Of a stretch of DNA of 20,213 nt, positions 1,815 through 17,813 are shown one piece after another. The number at the start of each line of letters is the position of its first letter. Position 1 is the first letter of the stretch. A model generated the notes under the pieces. The model was not told where the DNA came from. It worked only from the letters and a program-made list of their open reading frames with translations, and ran no database searches. The position numbers were made by a program, and so were the translations under genes. Source of the stretch: Spirogloea muscicola. Taxonomy: Eukaryota; Streptophyta; Zygnematophyceae; Spirogloeales; Spirogloeaceae. The stretch covers positions 216,181-236,393 of the forward strand of contig WELB01000138.1 of the NCBI GenBank assembly GCA_009602725.1. The letters run 5' to 3'.

Positions 1815-4800
1815 TTATGTTGACTGCTCCTGCAGCTTGCGGTGCTCTGGCATCAGCTGAACCAGCACGTCTACGACCGCTGGCATGTCCGGCCTGCTTG
1901 CCGGCTGCGCCTGCAGGCACGCCCAGGCGAGCCGGGCGAGCTGCTCCATGCCGTGTACAGGGTAGCGGCCCCTCAGGGCCGGGTCGACGATCTTGTCAGC
2001 CACGCTGGCTGCCTTCTGCAGCAATGGGACAGCCTGTGCATTATGCAGAACGATTGGCCCTTATCGTTATGTTAGAACGTCTGAATAATCTGTCAGACTG
2101 CAGCAACGTGCAGACTATATCTGCAAGACCGAGGATTGCACAACTCATTGCCAGACAAAAGACTCACCCAAAGAACGAGGCTGTCCTGGCCCTCTGGCCG
2201 AGTGTGGTCGATGGGCTTCCGGCCTGTCAGCAGCTCCAGCAGGACCACCCCAAAGCTGCACAAGGAGGGGATGTCTCCGGCTCACCATTTATTCGAACTT
2301 CAATTCCTTTTTCATTGACACACGGCTAATGGGCAGTGACAAATTGCAGCAGCGATGGGCATCTATGAACTGCTGACGAGGCCATTCAGTGTGGGTCTTT
2401 CACCAATTTGCGCCTCTTGAGATGCTCCTGAGATACTCACACTTAAGTGATGTGAATGCATGCAGCAAGAATGCAACAATACCTGAACACATCACTCTTG
2501 ACTGTAGTCAAGCCCATATTTGCCTGCTCGGGGGCCTGATAGCCAGAGCTGCCTAAAACCCCAACTACGGATGATGTACGCGCCCCTGCCGAGGATGCTG
2601 CCGGTCTGGCTACACCAAAGCTGGAGACCTGGAGGATGGAGATCATGTATGACGTAGAAGTCACTAGTCATGATAATTATGAGCAATGCCTTGGCAGCAT
2701 AATCGTCCAATTTTCTTAGCTAGCAAGCAAGTAGAAGTCTCAGGGAAGAGTCCTCACCTTTGCTCGCCATTTCTCATCCAGCAGGATGTTCCTAGACTTC
2801 AAGTCGCCGTGCAGAATAGGCACAGTTGCCGAATCGTGGAGGTACTCCAAGCCTCTGGCAGCACCAAGAGCCACACAGATCCTTGCTTCCCAGCTCAGAC
2901 CCTTCTTGCCGGCAGTGAAGTCGAGATGCTCTCTGAGCGTCCCATTTGGCGCAAATTGTGTCACAATGAGCTGCTCATTCCTTTCAGTACAGTAACCTAT
3001 GAAGTTCACAAGGTTGAGGTGCTGTGCCTTTGACAGGACTTCCACCTGCTCGCAAACATGAAGAGGGCACATTTGTCATCACTGGTACAATATATCTCAG
3101 CCTTCTATGAAAGACATAGAAAGGTTTTGCCAGTTTCACCTGCAGTCCTGCAGAAGCTGCGAATGAGGTGAAAGCACACTTGCATACCTCAGCACGGAAC
3201 TGGCTGGTGAGGCCCTGGCCACTTCTCCCGCGTAAATGCTTGATGGCAACGTCTTGCCCGTTTGCGAGAGTGCCCCTGTACACAGCACTGCCCTCTTCGG
3301 AGCTGATCCGATGCCCTTCGTTGAAGCCGCCGCTGCTCATGTACAGCTCCTCATACGGTACTTGCAACACCTTGACGCTGAGAACTGTCTCTTCTGGCTC
3401 AGTCTCAACTAGTAGAGGTGGATCTTGGGAGCATCAAAGTAGCACAAAAGTAGAAAACAAGACAGGGTCAGCAGGAGGATCCATATCACATGCCTTGCCT
3501 TAGAGAAAGATAGCAAAACTTCATCTGGGTAAATCGTGGAGTCCTCATACCAGTTCTGCTATTATCGTCTTTGCGTGGAGCAGGTGCCTCATTGCCATCA
3601 AAAGAATTTGGTCGGCTGGGCAGCTGTTGAAAAGGATGATTATCATAGGTTCCCATGATGGTTGTGGACTTCTTGATGCTGCCTACACGGATCTCTCTGT
3701 ATACTATCAGTGCAATTGCCAGGGCAACCAGAGCCGCGGCACTTAGAACAATTGGAATGATGTAAATGAGTGGGACAGAGCGCCGCTTGGATTTGACTCC
3801 TGTCACCATTGCAAGGGCTGCATTAAAAGTATGACCAAGAAGCAGCCAGCAGCAAGGTCCAAGCAAACCAGAAATTCTTGAGACAGTGCCTCCAGAACAT
3901 TCCAAATGGCATCAGTTCAAGAATGTGCACAAGCTACAGAGCTTTGGCCCCAGAGTTTTTCTGACAATTTGAAGTCCTAGATGTGCACAATGTGCAGGAT
4001 GACTTCCTCTTGAATTCTCTGTCAGAATTTTGTCGTCAAGTGAGCAGACGTGCAAGCCTGCCTGGACAGCCGCATTCTGGACAGCTACTCACTCACCGGT
4101 TTGCCAAGGGTCGGTGACACTCAAGATGATATACGGACCCAATTGTGGATGCACCAGTGTGCCATTTAGCTCCAGTAGCTGCTTGCGCAGCGCGGAGACG
4201 TCCTCTGCGGAAAAGAATGGTCCTGCTACTGGCAAGAGCGCCAGATCAAGGATCACGCTGCCAGCTTGCCTTGACAACACAGTCATCTGCAGCCAGCAAG
4301 CCGAGTTGAGTACCGGAGACAGGACAGACGCCCCTGGACGTGCGGGCAAACACTGCGTGCCATTATCAGCATAATTCGTTAACAAGCATTGAGGTCTGGC
4401 AGACTCCAACACATGTAAAACCCATGAGAGCATTCAATCAGGTGCACTGCATATGACATAGCAATATGTTCACCTGTTCACGACATTGTTCGAGTATAGA
4501 AAAGGTATACCTGTGTTTGACTGGCAAGGAGCAGATGCGAGAATTGTGAAAGGAAGCTTCGCTGGTCTGAGGGTGCAAAGGTACTGAAATCTGCTGCCAA
4601 CAGCCGGACCTTGACCATCATAGGCGCCGAGCATTGACAGCTGGACTCTTGTTGCTGTAACAGCAATTGAGCTGTTGGACAGGCTGGGCATGCTGGCACA
4701 GATTGGCAAATGCATGGAAGTTAGAGGCACTTACAATGCACAAGCCCCTATTGCTTGTTAACTGCTGCTATCAGCTTACAGCGCTAATTGCTTCAAAAAA

Positions 4801-7365: not shown

Positions 7366-7740
7366 GCGCTACTGTGGCGAAGTGGCAATTGCTGGGGGAG
7401 GGGAAGAGAAAAATCGGGTGGGGGGGTAAGAAGACCGTTGGCTAGGACGGTAACGACTCGCCAACGTTATTGTCACGGCGCGTGGTTGTCACGTCGCGTT
7501 GGACACCGACGATGTCAGCCGCGTGCCGGGGCCGTCGCGTCGGGAGCGACGGAGACGGGGGGTGGGCCCGCCTGTGCCCCGCCCTGCCCTTCTGGGGCAC
7601 CCTCCCTCCCCTCCCGCTCCGCAGTCGCTTGCCAGGCCTCTGCCTTCCGTCGCCGCCCTCCCTCCCCTCCCGCGAAGAGTGCTAGAACCCTCCCGCTCCG
7701 GGCTTCCTTTGCACCCCCCTCCTCCGCCATCTCCGCCNGC

Positions 7741-7830: not shown

Positions 7831-10800
7831 ATGGCGGAGCGGCTCCTCGACTTCTCGCAGCCGCTCGACGTCGCCCTCCTCGACTCCACCATCGACGCCT
7901 TCTACGGCACCGGATCCAAAGACGAAGTGAGCCTTGATGATAGCTTGTTCTGCCAGCGACTCGCTCCCGCTCTAGAAGCTCCTAAGGAAGCTCAAACGGC
8001 GCTTGGAGGCTCTCTGTGCCAAGCTGCTCTTTCCTTGTAGGCCTCGAAAGAAGATGACGACATAGAGCTTCTGGCCTGAAGCCCCTAATCAGCTATCAGC
8101 GCTACACTGTACGCGCGTCCGTCTTGCGGTCGTCGTGCGGTCGTGGCACTCAGCCTGCTTGGTACAGCTTGAGCTGGTGCGTCATCAATGCCATCTGCGG
8201 GCTCTTCCTCGATGCCTGCAGCGGGCCGCCGCGGAGCGCGTCCTAAGAGCCCTCCAAGAGCACCCTGAGACCTGGACGCGCGTCGTGTCGGTCCTCCAGA
8301 CCAGCCGCAACCAGAACTCCAAGTTCTTTGCCCTACAGGTGAGCTCCCATGGTGCGGTGTCCTTCACTCTGTTGCGAAGGCTAAGCATGTGCAGCTCTAG
8401 TCAGTCTGCTCAACTGCCATATATATATCTAGCAAGGGTTTTGCGCAGACGCTTGGCTAGGCACAGGGACATGCATTGAAGTCAATTTCCCGGAATTCAG
8501 CTACTTTTCTCGTCTTGGACAAGTGGCAAAGCCCACTTGCACACGGTCGTCACAAGAAGCGAGACCCAGGTTGTCGACATAGTGAGCGACAAGATCCTGA
8601 GGCTCCTGTTATTGTTTAGACTCTTGGCTATTGAGCTAATTCTAAGCATGCTCTTTCTTGTTTGGCACTTTGCAGGTCTTAGAGGGTGTCATCAAGTACC
8701 GGTGGAACGCCCTTCCTGTGGAGCAGAGGGACGGAATCAAGAACTACATCTCTGATTTGATTGTGCAGGTAGGGTTCTACTCTAGTAGCTGATAGCAGTA
8801 AGTCCTCTTTCAGAAGAAGCGCTGACCAGGTAGCTCCACTACCAATGTCGTGCCATATTCAGCATGCATGCAGGGTTGTCTGTCGTTGATAACAACTTCC
8901 CTGAGCCAAGGAGCTTTCCATCATCTTATTCAATTTGATCATTGTTATCGTTTTAATCACTTTAATCATTCCTGCAGATATCACGAGATGAGACGACATT
9001 CCGTTCTGAGCGATTGTATCTCAACAAACTCAACATTATTCTAGTCCAGGCATGACAAGATTGCCCCACCATCTCACTGCTTATTTCAAGTCTTGCATCT
9101 ACCTGGCTAGCATTGCTTAGACTGAGGCTTGAATATAATGTAGTTCCAGTTCCTAGTTCCTGGGCAATGGGGTCTTGCAGCCCCCTCTGTGACTTCAATT
9201 TCTCGACTTCGTCGGACGCCGATTGGGGCTGGCCCTCTTAGCTTGCTGTGTCTGATGACTTCAGACATTCATGTTGGGCAGGTCCTCAAGCATGAGTGGC
9301 CTCAACGTTGGCCAAACTTCATACCAGACCTTGTAACAGCTGCAAGGAGCAGTGAAACCCTGTGTGAAAACTGCATGGTCATTCTTAAGGTACTTTCAAT
9401 TCAAGAAGTTGGCTGCATATGCATGAGAAGCTGACATCCATGCGATGTGATCATGTATCTAGTCAATCACGGATACCTTCCATTTGCTGTATAGCTTGAG
9501 ATTGAGCTCACAACCATCTCTTATCCAATCACAGCTCCTGAGTGAGGAGGTGTTTGACTTCTCGCGCGGAGAGATGACCCAGCAGAAGATTAAAGACTTA
9601 AAACAATCACTTAACAGGTAAGCTGGCTGCCACTCATGTCCACATATGTCCTGCTGTACTCTCTGGTGCGCCTCTGCTCCAGGGACCAGACTCTTCCTGG
9701 CAGTGACAGCAATGTGGCTTTTCTGTGTGCACTGCTGGTGCAGCGAGTTCCAGCTGGTCCACGAGCTCTGCCAGTATGTTCTCGCTGCCTCGCAGCGGCC
9801 CTCACTGACCAGGGCAACGCTCTCCACACTGCATGCATTCCTCTCTTGGATACCATTGGGCTACATCTTCGAGTCCACTCTGGTCAGTCGGCCCCCCTTG
9901 GAGCTCATATTGATGTCCCATCTGCAGGAGATGTCAATTAATCTCTAGTTTGAGATGCAGTGTTGCTGATTACTTGTCCTGGGTGTTAGTAGCCAGTAAG
10001 AAGTACTCATGCTTGCTGAGGATCATGGAGCAAGATGACAGGTTGCAGATGTTAAATAGCTGCCATATATGCCTCGTGTGCACTGCAGTTGGAGAGTTTG
10101 TTAAAACTCTTCCCCATACCGGCGTACAGAAATCTTGCGTTGCAGTGCCTCACTGAGGTAAATCTACGATCGTGAGCTCTTTCTGTCTTAGCAATAATAT
10201 CGAATCGTGTCAAGCGTGTCGCTTCTGGGGAGCGCGAAGGGCATTACTTTGGCCAATGACGTCCTTTTCTGAGCCGCAATGCACTTGCTATGAGCCCTGT
10301 GCTGCCTACTCCACTCGTCATACCTACCCAGGATCACTTGCCAATATGTGCCTCGCCATTGGGTGGTTGCTGCAGGTGGCTGCCCTTAGCTTTGGCGACT
10401 ATTACAATCCACACTTTGCCAAGCTATACACGTTCTTCATGGAGCAGCTCCAGGCAAGAGAGCTCTTCTGCATCCAAATGCTGCAGACTTTAGACCCTGG
10501 TCTACAAAGGATGGAGGAGCTGTGATGATAATGCATAATAAGCAAATACATGGCATGCCTAATGCTGATGCAATTCTTGGCTGCCATTGCAGGCCATCTT
10601 GCCGCTCTCTACAAATATTCCTGAAGCCTATAATTTAGGCAGTGATGAGGATCAGGTAAAACTGGGCTATCAGGCAGTGACATCGGCATGTCAAGGACTT
10701 ACCTCCCTATCTCGCTAGAATTTGGCGTCCAGCTTAATTCATCACAAGTCTGACAGCAAGGCTCCCATTACCTTTACTTTTGCTACTTTGCCACTTCAAA

Positions 10801-13800
10801 TCTGATGTCTGGTGTCGTGCCTGGCTGTACATGTACACAGTCTTTCATCCAGAACCTTGCACTCTTCTTCACATCCTTTTTTAAGGTAAGATCCATCTGC
10901 ATGTTATGAAGTCTGGATACATCTTCCTGCATTTTGTGCTCTCGTGTAAATTGAAGGCATCACTTGGTATTGATTCCTCTGGGTTCTGTAAGTTGCTCAA
11001 GCCGTTAGCATCCAACAACAGCCACCTGCATAAATGTGTCTCCTTGAGTCCATTGCAGTATCACCACATTGCATTGAGCTCCCTGCTTCCAGTAGCTTGT
11101 GAGCTGGTTCTGAGGTGTGTTGCATGTGTCGGCAGGCTCACATCCAGGTCTTGGAAGCAGCACCAGAGCCCCTCCTGTTCGGCCTTGACTACCTCATTTA
11201 CATCTCGTACGTGGAGGACACTGAGGTCTTCAAGGTACATCTTACACTCTAGCCTGATTTCTACGGTTCGTTTCCGCCAAGCTGAAGTAGCAAGTTGCTG
11301 CTTGGTCTTCTTCACACTTTAGTTGAAATTGCTAGTGAGCTACGCTTTTGTATTGGCATGCTCTTGTTGCTCTTGTTCTTCAGTGGTTTGACATATTTGG
11401 TATAAATCCACTTCATTAAGAGTGCAGCGAGCTGATTGCCCTTCTTGCTGGCACCATAGCTTTTGTCGACTCAGTCAACCCTCTACTTTGTGCAAGCGGT
11501 GGTTTATATGCTCCTCCATGTCAAGTGTTTGGGCAGCAACAAGTCTTGGCAGATTTGCTTTGGCATCTTACAAGGAGAATGTTGATAGCTGTGTGCAGGT
11601 GTGTTTAGACTACTGGAATGTGCTTGTCTGCGAGCTATTTCAGTCAGAGTGCAGTATGGAGGCTACACTGCCACCAACACCTCTTGGGTTGCAGGCAAGT
11701 TCTTACTTGCACCAGTTGGATGACACAGTGTTTTAGCATGCACACGTCATGGGTACGTGAAGCCACTGTGTGGATCTGCAGACAGCACTATCTACGGATC
11801 AATTAGTCCACTTTAGAACCTGCCATCATCTTTGTGAGCTTTACGCACTACAGTGACTTGCTTTTGTGACAGTAGAGAGGAATGTTCCCCACTAAATTCA
11901 TGCGATGGAGATTGTGAGTAAGGAGCAAACCTGCAAATACTGCAAGGGCAGTAGGAGGCAACAACACTTAGTCACGTACTATTGTACTTGTGGGCTCGCA
12001 GGTGGGCTTAGTAGTCGGTGCACCCATGACGAACGGAATTGGTGGGCAGATGTCACCACGAAAGCAGCTGTACTCGGGGCCAATGTCTAAGCTGCGACTC
12101 CTCATGATCAGTAGAATGGCCAAGCCAGAGGAGGTTTTAATAGTTGAGGACGAAAATGGCAACATAGTCCGAGAAACGATGAAAGACAATGACGTTCTTG
12201 TCCAGTACAAGGTAGATAATTTGTCGAGTGCTTGGTTTGATCAAATGCTCGATGTGTTATCTGATTGCTCTGCTCTTCCAGGCTTCAATATTGCAGTATG
12301 AGCAGAGAGGTGTGGTTGTAAGTGCTCAGGTGGACAGTCTTCACATTGCAATGTTGCAGATAATGAGAGAGACGCTGATCTACCTCTCACATTTAGATCA
12401 CGAGGACACTGAGCAGCAGGTCAGCACAGGAAGACTACTGCTTCAAATATGTGATGGAATGGCCTTGCAATCACATACTAGAGGACAGCTAGTTAAGCAA
12501 TGATGTACTTCTGATGCCTTTTAGGACATTATCAAGAGGGTGGTCGTTCTTTCAGAGGTGGTGTCGATGAGATTGAGAAAGTTCCTGCTTGTAATTTCGA
12601 TCACAAACACTGCTTGATTCTTGCAGATGCTCAAGAAGCTGACCAAGCAGCTGAATGGAGATGAATGGTCGTGGAACAACCTGAACACTCTGTGCTGGGC
12701 GATTGGGTCTATCTCTGGTTCTATGGTCGAGGATCAGGTCAGTCAACATGGCTCCTTTAGTCTGACAGCCTACTCCCAGGAAGCGTGTTCGTGAATGTCG
12801 TATTGCTTGCGATGTCAGTTGGTGGGTCTGAAGCTGATGTGAGTGTCAAAGGCTGCACGGGTGTGCCCATGGCACAGAGACCCCACGGTGTGCAGCTCGT
12901 GCCTGCCCAGTTAGGCAGCAGATGTTGGGCAGCTGTCACATGGAATGCTGGACTTCTTGCGCAATGCAGGAGAATCGTTTTTTGGTGACTGTGATTCGCG
13001 ACCTGTTGAACCTCTGTGAATTCACAAGAGGGAAGGACAACAAGGCCGTCATTGCCAGCAACATCATGTACGAAGCAAGTGGGGCGACCTGGGGTCGAGT
13101 CGGGTCTTGTCCACACAAGAGAGTCCTCTGCTTGACTAGCTCTTGAGAGACGTCCAAGTGCTTGCTACTTGTCATGCAGGAGAGCCGATTCTTGGTGCAA
13201 GTGGTCCAAGATCTTCTCACGTTATCAAAGGCAGTCAAGGGAAAGGATCATAAGGCGGTGGTCGCCAGTGACATCATGTAGGCTAGGCCATTGGACCTTG
13301 AAAAGGCGCAAATTGAAGCCGGAGAGCTTTTACCTGCTGTCGTACATGTCAAAATTGCTCTGTCTAATTTGTGCCAATTTTACTGCCACAAGTGGCAACT
13401 AGGAACATATGCTGCAGCAAAGAACATTGTGAAGATGTAAGTCTGCTGCCACATAGTGCCATGCTCATCTTTGTGGTTTGCTTTTGCAGGTATGTCGTTG
13501 GACAGTATCCGAGATTCTTGCGAGCTCATTGGAAGTTCTTGAAGACGGTCGTAAACAAGCTGTTTGAGTTTATGCACGAGACTCACCCTGGGGTGCAGGT
13601 GTGTGGAATATCTCTTTGCTGTGGCCTCTGAGGGCAGCTTATTGTAGCTGAGCGCCATGTATGCTTTTAGGACTAAGAGCTTTTCCTGTGTGGTGGCCTA
13701 AGTTTCAATAGCTAGACTTTTATCTTATTCCAATCTGCCTCGCAATGTACGCATGCCTGTGCTGTGCGCTAGGCTGGCAGCAATACTGACAGGCCTCCTG

Positions 13801-16800
13801 CTTCTTGCAATACAGGACATGGCGTGTGACACCTTCTTGAAGATTGTACAGAAGTGCCGTCGCAAATTCGTGATACTACAGGTATGCCATGGATTTCTCA
13901 CTTGTCAGATGCGCATTCTATGATATTTTGGTCCTGATATTCTTAACAGGCATATGTATGCGAGTCAAAGTAGCCATGCTCGCATTGTGCAACACCAGGT
14001 TTGCTAGGGTACTACTGATCATGTGCTTTGTGCAGGTGGGTGAGACAGAGCCTTTCATACTAGAGCTACTACGAGGGCTGTCAACAACCATCCTCGACCT
14101 GCAGGCACATCAGATCCACACCTTCTATGAGTCTGTAAGTGCAGCTTGCCATGTGTGCACTATACATGGACGTCCTTGCAATGGCCACTCCAGATGTGTG
14201 CAGTCTGGAATCAAGTGGGTGAGAGGATCTTTGGCCTCTTAGTCACTCAATCAGGCCAGTCAAGTTTCTCATTAAGGTCATGTCATCTGCTTTCAGGTTG
14301 GTTATATGATCCAAGCAGAAACTGATCAGCTGAAGCGTGACGAGTATCTTCAGAAGTTGATGCAGCCGCCCAACGTGGTGAGTCTCAACTTTTGCACTGC
14401 GTGAGGCTATCGTGCTCTTTTGAGGAAGCTTGCTGTGTTGCATCTCTTGATCCCAAGCTCATCTTAGCAACTCCAGTCCTGTCTGTGAGTATGGGTGTCC
14501 AGTCTCCCAGTTGGCATCGTCTGCCACTGCACAAACTGCATCAGTCACATCCTGCCTCTGTCCTCGGCGTGTGATCTGCAGAGATGGGCGCAGATTATTG
14601 AACAGGCTAAGCAAAATGTCGAGTTTCTGAAATTGCCCGACTCCATCAGAGCAATTCTGAATATTCTGCAGGTGCATATTGAGGACACCTCTGTCTCTTC
14701 AACTGTCAGCAATTTATCATGTCGATGCAGCTATTGCAGCTCGATGACCAAGGCATATGTTTGACTCGTATCTATGTGCATGCTGGGTGGATGCAGACCA
14801 ACACAAGAGTGGCTAGTGCACTTGGACAGCCTTTCCTTACGCAAATTACACTCATCTATCTTGACATGCTCAATATATACCGGTATGCTGGCACAGCATG
14901 TAGCATACAGAATGGGCATTTGGCAGTCCACCCCATTGCTGTTATTTGCATTGACGTATGGATGAATGATTTACCACGTTCTGGCATTCATGACTGTCAA
15001 TCATAGTGTGTGTAATATTCGTCATTGGAAGCCCTATGCCTGTGGTGGAGCTTGTTTCTAATATAGTCACAAAATCTCCTTGCAGGATGTACAGCGAGCT
15101 CATCTCAAGTAGTGTTGCTGAAGGAGGGCCTTACGCTTCAAAGACGTCATTTGTCAAGCTTCTCAGGTAAAGCACATCAGGTGGCTTGTGCAAAATACTG
15201 CCTGATGCTACTGTTGCTACTATGTATTGTGGGCTCTTGGAAGCGCAAGGTAAGCCTTTGTTTGTTACCATAATGTCAGCACTGATAGCTCATCAGCCTG
15301 CACATCATCTTCCTCAAGCAAGTCCTTTATGCTGAAGATGGTGCAGCAGCATGCACTGATGAACCTGAATTGCAAGTCATTAGTGCGGATACATGTGGTG
15401 AGCGTCATCAGTTTTGGCTATCGTTGCATTGTTGCAGGTCTGTCAAGCGGGAGACTTTGAAATTGATTGAGACGTTTGTGGACAAATCCGAGGACCCCGA
15501 GCTCGTTGCAAAGCAATTTGTGCCGGCTATGATGGATCCCATCCTTGGAGACTATGCGCGCAATGTGCCTGATGCAAGAGAATCTGAAGTCCTCTCTCTA
15601 TTTGCCACCATTATCAACAAGTGAGGGCTGTCTTACAGCTAGTTATGCATGCAGTATCAACACTACTTTCTTAATATGAGGGTCTTGTTAATAACGACCT
15701 CCATACTCCATGGTCATTGTTTTGAGAGATGACGTGTGAAGATCTGGCAGGCTCGGCTCACTGGAAGTGCTGTTACTTGCAGGTTGAAAGTTGCAATGCT
15801 TGATGAGGTCCCCCGCATTTTTGAGGCTTGTTTTGAGTGCACGCTCAAGGTAGAGCAATTATTACTTCTAGGCATCCTTCTAATACTCAAAGCAGGGGTT
15901 AAGATCTTCTTGAAGAGGTTGCAGTGGCACAGCCTGTGACATGCATGAATATTCGACTTACCCAGCTTGAAAGCACCTGATTGTTGCTGTCTAGTACCTG
16001 GTGTATCCCATCTTCAAGTGCTGTGACATGGCTCACATTGTTGTTGTTATCATACCAGATGATCACAACGAACTTTGAGGATTACCCTGAGCACAGGCTC
16101 AAGTTTTTCTCGCTCTTGAAAGCCATTGCCTCACATTGCTTCCGTGCACTTTTTACTCTTTCCAGCCAGGTGTGTGTGCGTCTCTTTAGTTTGAAGGCAT
16201 GCAGGCATGCCGCTATGACATGATCATTGCGCCCTTTTATTATCAAGGATTTCGTACTCCTTGTTGCTGCGTATAGCTGCTCATTGACTTGCTTCTAACA
16301 ATTGAGCGGGTTGTTGGCTGTTTTGGCTTAGCAGCAATTGAAGCTTGTGATGGACAGCATCTTCTGGGCATTCCGCCACACAGAAAGAAATGTTGCAGAG
16401 ACAGGCCTCAACCTCCTACTAGAGATCCTTACCCAATTCCAGGTCAGTTACAAGGAGATTCTCAAACTCGAGTAATAATAGCTCAGACCCCAAATCCTCA
16501 GTCCACCTTCCACCAGCTTCCATAACACCTCACTCTAATGGGTGCACGCCATGATCACCTTGGGCATGCACCTGGAGTTGTACTTAGAAGTTGTAGGGGC
16601 TTCTATCAGCTGTCTGCTGAGGTCCTTGTACGTGGTCCGCACATAATGACCTCGCAGTATGCCCCAGCGGACTTGCTGCTGGTTATTCTCACCAACTTCC
16701 AGGTAGGTCTGTCGGTCTGTCTGTCTGTCTATCTGGACAGCCAAGTGTCAGTGAGCAGATCGGGACCTCCTTTTCCTCTTAAATCTAAGTAGGCTACTGG

Positions 16801-17813
16801 AGATCATCCAGAGAAGCTTCTATTAGAAAGCCCGACTTTGATGAATGTAGAGCAGCTCAGACAAGCTCTTTGTACTTCGCTCATGTCAAGGAATTTGGTT
16901 TTACCCCTGCTTGCAGACGTCGGAGTTTTGCAACCAGTTCCACCAGACCTACTTCCTTACCATTGAGCAGGAAATTTTTGCTGTGCTGACGGACTCCTTC
17001 CACAAGCCTGGCTTCAAGCTTCATACCCTGATCTTGCAGCACCTCTTCTGCCTGGTAGGTCCACTTTGTGAATTCTGTTCTGGAGAAGTAACCGAGGAGA
17101 TTGTTCAGAGCTGGCTTATCATGATTCGTCTGATGAGTTCAGTAACATGCAGAGGCTTGCAGGTTCCAGTCGCTGATATTCCACTAGCCTTTGCCAGTGC
17201 TTACCTGAGACAACTCCTGTTTGGCAGGTGGATTCTGATGTTCTCACGCAGCCACTATGGGATGTTGCTAAGTTGGGGCCGACGGCCTTTGCAAACAATG
17301 CTGCATTTGTACTCGACTACACAATTACGTTGCTGAGCGAGTCCTTTCCCAACATGACTCCTATTGAGGTGGCTGCCTTTGTCAAGGGCAGCTTTGAGGT
17401 CAAGCATGACCTGGCTGCCTTCAAGAATCACCTACGCGACTTCCTCGTGCAATCAAAAGAGTTCTCGGACAAGGTACGTGCAGGGGTTGAGCTTGTTTGT
17501 GAGTCCTTGCATGCAGCTGGTTTGTGGGTCGCAGGGTCGATTACCACTGTACTTACGTCAACCAAGACATGCTGGCAAGCGTTGGGGCAAAAGAGGCGAC
17601 ATGCTCATGCAGTCCTTGCATTGTTGCTTGCTGACAGAGTTGTCAAATTTAATGCTTAGTTTCCCTTGGCTGCTCATGCTTTATATGCAGGACAACAAGG
17701 ACCTGTATGCCGAGGAGGCAGCAGCCCAGCGGGAGGCTGAGAGGCAGCGCATGCTGGCCATCCCGGGCCTCATTGCACCGGCAGAGATACAAGACGAGAT
17801 GGTGGATGCCTGA
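7831..17813 (+). CDS. XPO1: Exportin-1 (CRM1), nuclear export receptor for leucine-rich NES cargoes
   Basis: A karyopherin-beta that carries NES proteins out of the nucleus with RanGTP. Exons: 7831-7926, 8222-8338, 8676-8768, 8978-9049, 9282-9389, 9535-9617, 9744-9882, 10089-10157, 10376-10453, 10593-10655, 10841-10885, 11136-11234, 11599-11694, 12002-12211, 12360-12419, 12627-12737, 12970-13067 (17a) or 13180-13277 (17b), 13490-13598, 13816-13881, 14036-14134, 14297-14377, 14582-14671, 14797-14882, 15086-15166, 15438-15620, 15783-15849, 16059-16169, 16335-16442, 16917-17054, 17228-17473, 17691-17813. They join in frame to 1,074 aa, against 1,075 for Arabidopsis XPO1A as I recall it. Visible parts are the importin-beta N-terminal domain ([15 protein letters not shown]), the HEAT-9 acidic loop ([17 protein letters not shown]), the NES groove of HEAT 11-12 (exons 17-18) and the C-terminal tail ([14 protein letters not shown]). 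Three introns start with GC. Oddities are a duplicated exon 17, a possible duplicate of exon 28, and Arg where plants have Pro in CFPAL. Confidence 0.97.
9050..9281 (+). other. GC-AG intron 4 of exportin-1
   Basis: The exon ends LVQ with CAG, followed by GCATGA. No GT donor nearby preserves the frame, and the next exon (VLKHEWP) continues in phase 0. Confidence 0.85.
10454..10592 (+). other. GC-AG intron 9 of exportin-1
   Basis: The donor reads CAG, then GCAAGA. Flanking exons end MEQLQ and resume [13 protein letters not shown] in phase 0, matching the order in plant XPO1. Confidence 0.87.
11695..12001 (+). other. GC-AG intron 13 of exportin-1
   Basis: The donor reads CAG, then GCAAGT, the classic strong context of GC donors. 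The upstream exon ends PLGLQ. The downstream acceptor TCGCAG at 12001 is inferred from frame and length, because the first residues of exon 14 are poorly conserved. Confidence 0.82.
12970..13067 (+). other. Exportin-1 exon 17a: canonical NES-groove exon with the reactive Cys
   Basis: 98 nt, entering in phase 0 after ATGCAG and leaving in phase 2 (AT, then GTACGA). It encodes human residues 513-545 equivalents: [16 protein letters not shown], then [17 protein letters not shown]. Cys529 corresponds to human Cys528, the covalent target of leptomycin B. Lys (human 534 and 537), Ala541 and Met545 equivalents are all present. This copy is the closer one to plant and animal XPO1. Confidence 0.95.
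13180..13277 (+). other. Exportin-1 exon 17b: tandem duplicate with Ser at the leptomycin site
   Basis: 98 nt, 112 nt downstream of 17a, with the same phases (ATGCAG acceptor; AT, then GTAGGC donor) and no stop. It encodes [16 protein letters not shown], then [17 protein letters not shown]: 20 of 33 residues match 17a, and 11 of those 20 codons differ silently. Relative to 17a it has Cys to Ser and Glu to Lys at the human 528-529 positions and Ile to Val at 521. It keeps Lys534, Lys537, Ala541 and Met545. Splicing 17a to 17b, or skipping both, shifts the frame into stops within exon 18. Confidence 0.85.
16610..16702 (+). other. Candidate alternative or cassette exon 28b of exportin-1
   Basis: An open 93-nt segment in phase 0 at both ends lies in the longest intron (474 nt), between TATCAG and GTAGGT. 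Its last 11 codons read [11 protein letters not shown], against [11 protein letters not shown] at the end of exon 28: 8 of 11 residues match with several silent differences. The first 20 residues do not match exon 28. A shorter version starting at 16658 after CTCGCAG would hold only the similar part (45 nt). Treating it as an exon splits the intron into 167 and 214 nt, the usual size here. Confidence 0.4.
16703..16734. repeat. Short GTCT-rich tetranucleotide tract
   Basis: Imperfect GTCT units (GGTCTGTCGGTCTGTCTGTC) lie in intron 28, directly after the donor of the candidate exon 28b. Confidence 0.7.

Follow-up and report, generated by a model that had tools for sequence, protein, structure and literature searches.

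Tandem mutually exclusive exons have been reported in Dscam, 14-3-3 zeta, Mhc and MRP1 of insects, and in fly and human the introns adjoining such exons are described as raised in conservation (PMC6071210). For exportin-1 (XPO1, CRM1), a regulated splicing event has been reported from the green alga Chlamydomonas reinhardtii, where an exon-skip leading to a premature stop changes over the diurnal cell cycle, rising after mitosis with a peak at TP23; it hits the N-terminal importin-beta domain, and the text available for that report mentions neither a mutually exclusive exon nor a second receptor (PMC7534427).

The NES groove of CRM1 lies between HEAT repeats 11 and 12 (PMC5487384). Within it, Cys528 is reported as the covalent target of leptomycin, anguinomycin and ratjadone, with plumbagin and 15d-PGJ2 listed as further electrophiles hitting the same residue (PMC7221118). 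Fission yeast is reported to become resistant through Cys to Ser at this site (Cys529Ser in S. pombe) and budding yeast, which is without the Cys, to be insensitive (PMC7221118), and human CRM1 C528S is described as leptomycin-insensitive and in use as a backbone for export assays (PMC11674046). Leptomycin can reportedly still occupy the CRM1 groove when the Cys is absent (PMC4588050).

We analyzed a 20,213-nt stretch of contig WELB01000138.1 (the window) from Spirogloea muscicola, a zygnematophyte alga for which a triplicated genome has been reported (PMC7994812). Its forward strand carries, at 7831..17813 from ATG to stop, what reads as a complete exportin-1 gene, with a CRM1 C-terminal domain, a groove exon that shows homology to CRM1 chains of solved structure and a full-length frame. 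The model, for which exons were picked by eye using translations in all three frames together with GT/GC-AG splice sites, has 31 exons (counting 17a as exon 17) and encodes 1074 amino acids, in line with the length expected of an exportin-1 (about 1070; the human protein is given as 1071 amino acids, PMC7221118). Three introns of the model have GC donors (9050 GCATGA, 10454 GCAAGA and 11695 GCAAGT), the same in all three genomic copies described below. The sole ambiguous base (N) of the window, at 7738, lies about 90 nt before the start codon beside a GGC/GCG repeat run, and a plant-type receptor-kinase-like frame, recognized by eye, occupies 2740-3075 on the minus strand to the left of the gene.

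Within this gene, exons 17a (12970..13067) and 17b (13180..13277), both on the forward strand, probably form a tandem-duplicated mutually exclusive pair that would give exportin-1 two versions of its NES groove. The prediction draws its support from the exon anatomy, the frame consequences, the conservation of the pair among three gene copies and the long-term protein constraint on 17b. Both exons are presumably spliced in vivo, each to the exclusion of the other. As in Dscam-type pairs, 17a and 17b are neighboring homologues that match in length and phase, the frame survives only if a single one of them is used, and the flanking introns are unusually conserved; the Spirogloea case differs in the gene concerned, in that no docking/selector pairing was found, and in that exclusivity is predicted from sequence. 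As with S. pombe Cys529Ser, S. cerevisiae Crm1 and human C528S, exon 17b has a residue other than Cys at the reactive position and keeps groove residues; unlike these leptomycin-insensitive proteins, it would be a splice isoform made beside a Cys form rather than a fixed allele or a laboratory mutant. Chlamydomonas offers a second green alga in which XPO1 splicing is regulated, the regulation being predicted in Spirogloea.

The preliminary description of this DNA had proposed two 98-nt exons, 112 nt apart, running from phase 0 to phase 2 with 20 of 33 residues identical, and these coordinates and counts are confirmed. Each exon is preceded by AG and followed by GT, is entered in phase 0 and ends two bases into a codon that exon 18 completes; the 20 identities include the Met split with exon 18, and 11 of the 19 identical full codons differ silently. 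Adjacent homologous exons that are similar in length, agree in phase and have their own splice sites are what characterizes tandem mutually exclusive pairs. Exon 17a aligns with residues 513-544 of the human exportin-1 chain 3gb8 at E 1.3e-10, and 17b aligns with the same residues at E 2e-4 (1.3e-5 to 6.1e-4 over all chains listed). We take this stretch to cover helix 11A with its tip loop and the first part of helix 11B. The best protein match to exon 17 in the intron has a score of 102, where 100 base shuffles reach 35 at most, and the pair recurs at three loci on three contigs; exon 17b is therefore not a chance resemblance.

Frame provides a second line of evidence. With either 17a or 17b alone the 1074-residue frame stays open, whereas inclusion of both leads to a TGA at 13540 and skipping of both to a TGA at 13565, each within exon 18 (13490..13598, forward strand), so that one-at-a-time use alone preserves the protein, as had been claimed. 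Loss of frame with both or none is likewise a mark of tandem mutually exclusive pairs. Under the proposed mechanism, each XPO1 pre-mRNA would take one of the two exons, and transcripts containing both or neither would be frameshifted to the exon 18 TGA and end in nonsense-mediated decay or as truncated protein, decay presumably clearing the wrong splice forms. The two full-length receptors would then differ in residues 513-544 alone, that is, in one wall of the NES groove.

The same stop codons suit a different reading, in which 17b is a poison exon that is mainly joined to 17a, or provokes the double skip, and thereby turns down the XPO1 level, its protein content being incidental. Both wrong combinations yield the exon 18 TGA that such a mode would use, and the Chlamydomonas XPO1 exon-skip, with its premature stop and diurnal cell cycle changes, is a reported event of this general kind (PMC7534427). 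A pure poison exon would nevertheless have no need of what 17b holds, namely 20 of 33 shared residues, the groove residues and an open frame kept through silent saturation. As the sole role of 17b we consider this unlikely; a poison-exon mode and a productive pair may occur together in one gene.

Genome searches (153 Mb, 471 contigs) were run with the exon-pair DNA, the joined exon 16-17b-18, a 91-residue peptide and the CRM1_C family as queries. All four returned the same three XPO1 loci, on the contig of the window and on contigs C4 and C5; as these searches score best candidates only, the count is at least three, and further divergent copies are possible. The CRM1_C model (PF08767) is above its cut-off at all three loci found, and each has the 17a+17b pair with GT and AG in place, with Cys in 17a and Ser in 17b at position 528. 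Recurrence at three loci means that the pair does not stem from a mistake in a single contig. Long blocks of the loci are 83-90% identical (a few short segments fall outside this range on either side), which identifies the three as old duplicates. No retrocopy showing spliced 17b was found among the best candidates scored: the 318-nt joined exon 16-17b-18 gave nine genome matches, all of them single-exon stretches at the three loci.

The three loci were aligned and variable sites were counted by exon and intron. Over the whole gene pS is 0.139 and pN 0.0029. Exon 17b has the lowest pS of 32 exons (0.030, a single silent variable site), followed by 17a (0.063), values that are weak taken alone at about 22 silent sites per pair each; silent divergence in exons 16 (12627..12737, forward strand) and 18 is ordinary (pS 0.157 and 0.179). 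The three introns adjoining the pair, again comparing three copies in one genome, are variable at 36 of 550 sites, as against 1174 of 5864 (20%) in the 28 other introns together. Raised conservation of the adjoining introns, a further mark of tandem mutually exclusive pairs, is thus found here as well. By far the slowest intron is 17a-17b (13068..13179), where, apart from a 1-nt indel, a single site out of 112 varies; intron 17b-18 (13278..13489) varies at 16 of 212 sites and intron 16-17a at 19 of 226. In the last of these the variation is uneven, with 10 of 43 gap-free sites variable in the first 48 nt and 9 of 183 in the remainder (12786..12969), so that the low-variation zone reaches from about 48 nt into intron 16-17a to exon 18. 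Of all 360-nt windows over the 23,557 sites aligned among the three copies, 12921-13280 varies least, with 5 variable sites; the next non-overlapping one has 21 and the median is 68. The 360-nt window on the pair is also the least variable in each of the two pairwise comparisons of the analyzed locus with another copy. A search of the whole stretch against Rfam for a structured RNA as cause of the conservation gave no match at gathering level.

Constraint on both introns and silent sites suggests regulated splicing, and conserved introns and silent sites would fit regulated unproductive splicing equally well; on the other side, 17b is without any amino-acid change over the three copies, which a poison exon does not ask for. 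The conservation could also have a cause other than selection, if gene conversion homogenized the block around the pair and 17b is an unused remnant. There are three copies in one species, and the window and C4 copies are identical from about 13380 to 13510 while C5 differs, which looks pairwise; recent conversion between these two copies may have added to their likeness there. The low block, in contrast, is three-way and located on the pair, exons 16 and 18 diverge silently at ordinary rates, no comparable tract occurs elsewhere in the 23.6 kb compared, and conversion leaves unexplained why 17b is still groove-like after silent saturation. Conversion among copies could be behind part of the low divergence; that it accounts for the block, with 17b unused, is highly improbable.

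The exon 17 introns are not the sole slow ones of the gene. Intron 28-29 (16443-16916), at 474 nt the longest, is unusually conserved (41 of 471 sites variable) and comes third when the introns are ordered from low to high divergence, before intron 16-17a. It contains an open stretch bounded by AG and GT (16610-16702) that ends in DLLLDILTNFQ in the C4 and C5 copies and resembles the end of exon 28. Its score of 35 is marginal, given that 100 shuffles reached up to 33 and that this was one of 30 introns tried, and 4 of its 5 variable sites change a residue. It may be a copy of exon 28 that is decaying, or else a conserved non-coding element.

That 17b is an old copy under selection, as the preliminary description held, is borne out by its divergence from 17a. 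Silent sites between the two exons are saturated (pS 0.98) and dN is about 0.33, and in 5000 simulations of neutral evolution of 17a, run to a distance of no more than 0.70 differences per site, on average 2.5 and never more than 9 of 32 residues were kept and 77% of the sequences acquired a stop. Saturated silent sites, low dN and the simulations together mean that 17b has long been kept as protein, and three-copy conservation points the same way. The dN/dS comparison proposed earlier could be made for three copies of one genome, among which 17b shows no non-synonymous difference (222 non-synonymous sites summed over the three pairs) next to its low pS, and between 17a and 17b with the values just given. 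Constraint of this duration suggests a productive 17b isoform.

How one exon would be chosen over the other can be approached from the splice sites, on a scale set by no more than 28 sites from one gene. The exon 16 donor (CAG/GTCAGT) outscores 27 of the 28 other donors, whereas those of 17a (CAT/GTACGA) and 17b (CAT/GTAGGC) outscore 5 and 8, respectively; weak donors on both alternatives would fit a regulated choice. On the acceptor side 22 of 28 others score below 17a, 18 of 28 below 17b, which is average, and all 28 below exon 18. At 112 nt, the intron between the alternatives is shorter than any other in the model (the second shortest has 125 nt), and such shortness does not by itself block splicing of 17a to 17b. 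Minor-class introns are recognized by a splice-site consensus of their own, and judged by eye against this yardstick the donors GTCAGT, GTACGA and GTAGGC with their AG acceptors are not minor-class, which speaks against U2/U12 incompatibility. Competing RNA structures of the docking/selector type were sought as inverted repeats of at least 10 nt (7-nt seed), and there were none. Nor is there excess folding around the pair (z 0.24; 11 of 20 shuffles fold as well), and all three comparisons of intron-intron duplexes were at shuffle level, with 10, 12 and 15 of 30 shuffles as good (30 per pair, by an approximate dinucleotide-preserving swap). Since competing RNA structure was not found, frame filtering combined with trans-acting regulation is the likelier route to exclusivity. 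The simplest account that the anatomy offers is that splicing factors acting in trans, probably by reading the conserved introns and silent sites, would choose between the two weak donors, and that the frame would discard wrong combinations.

The residue changes bear on what the two receptors might do. Alignment with 3gb8 confirms the substitutions named in the preliminary description: Ser for Cys at 528, Lys for Glu at 529 and Val for Ile at 521, with Lys534, Lys537, Ala541 and Met545 kept; 13 positions differ in all, 12 of them besides 528, and Leu525 is kept as well. Exon 18, said there to be the other groove wall shared by both forms, carries the Val565, Lys568, Leu569 and Phe572 positions unchanged. 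Several of these residues are named as groove residues in print (Leu525, Met545, Lys537 and Ile521 in the legend of a docking model, PMC10374058; Ala541 in PMC11674046), and 17b spares all of them except Ile521, which becomes Val. The two isoforms would accordingly be expected to differ in cargo choice, in sensitivity to cysteine-reactive inhibitors, or in both.

With a residue other than Cys at 528, the predicted 17b form has the feature that marks leptomycin-insensitive CRM1, and drug resistance is possible for it. As human CRM1 C528S exports drug-insensitively and Cys-less yeasts resist, the 17b isoform may well be export-competent and evade covalent inhibitors. A functional meaning might follow if one gene supplied an electrophile-sensitive Cys528 receptor and an electrophile-proof Ser528 receptor, and a splice switch kept or rerouted export in the presence of cysteine-reactive compounds, be they leptomycin-like poisons of soil bacteria or the alga's own stress oxylipins and quinones. 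We regard this as rather unlikely, and resistance as the selected function of 17b has only a small chance of being right; extending the Cys528 electrophile link to the organism's own reactive oxylipins is speculation.

The pair may equally be functional with the Cys/Ser difference incidental to it, selection having acted on helix-tip residues, cargo preference or groove opening. This reading overlaps with that of a mutually exclusive pair giving two groove versions, and we put its chances at about even. Between budding yeast and human, no stretch of the groove other than 526-530 is reported to have more than two unconserved residues (PMC4596688), yeast does without the Cys (PMC7221118), and 12 positions besides 528 distinguish 17a from 17b. 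In our alignment the CRM1 chain 4fgv has Thr at the 528 position. This chain is presumably from Chaetomium. Against a merely incidental role, Ser at exactly 528 is reported to abolish leptomycin sensitivity (PMC7221118, PMC11674046), and 17a keeps the Cys in all three copies. Because the 526-530 stretch is variable, yeast is Cys-less, 4fgv has Thr and leptomycin fits a Cys-less groove, protection against soil CRM1 poisons is one possibility among others for the predicted pair.

We are aware of no CRM1 gene, in any organism, that gives rise to two versions of the groove sequence. No description of mutually exclusive exons in exportin-1 was found in the literature searched, which lies largely outside the subscription journals, and the predicted pair would thus be new, being located at a drug-target site in a gene where none was found described. 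The earlier statement that no exportin-1 splice switch of this kind had been described stands, for the literature searched, as regards mutually exclusive pairs and gives way for splicing of the gene more broadly, as the exon-skip with premature stop in Chlamydomonas XPO1 is described (PMC7534427). As a transport receptor, CRM1 is highly conserved. A splice switch in its groove, if true, would open the selection of cargo to regulation and would amount to a natural experiment on which residues of the groove determine the cargo taken. The residue targeted by leptomycin and selinexor would likewise come under splicing control, and the role of Cys528 could be tested with two natural isoforms.

Relatives were also sought in GTDB, viral and plasmid contigs with a peptide spanning 17a, exon 18 and exon 19. 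None of five pattern matches in viral contigs encodes a relative, and plasmids gave none; a single one of the 58 pattern matches in GTDB contigs does, encoding an XPO1 fragment that has Cys at position 528 and is uninterrupted by introns over the part matched. This fragment (L029:1640-1912) looks eukaryotic and lies in a contig filed under the Clostridiales metagenome genome UBA7001, where it is presumably contamination.
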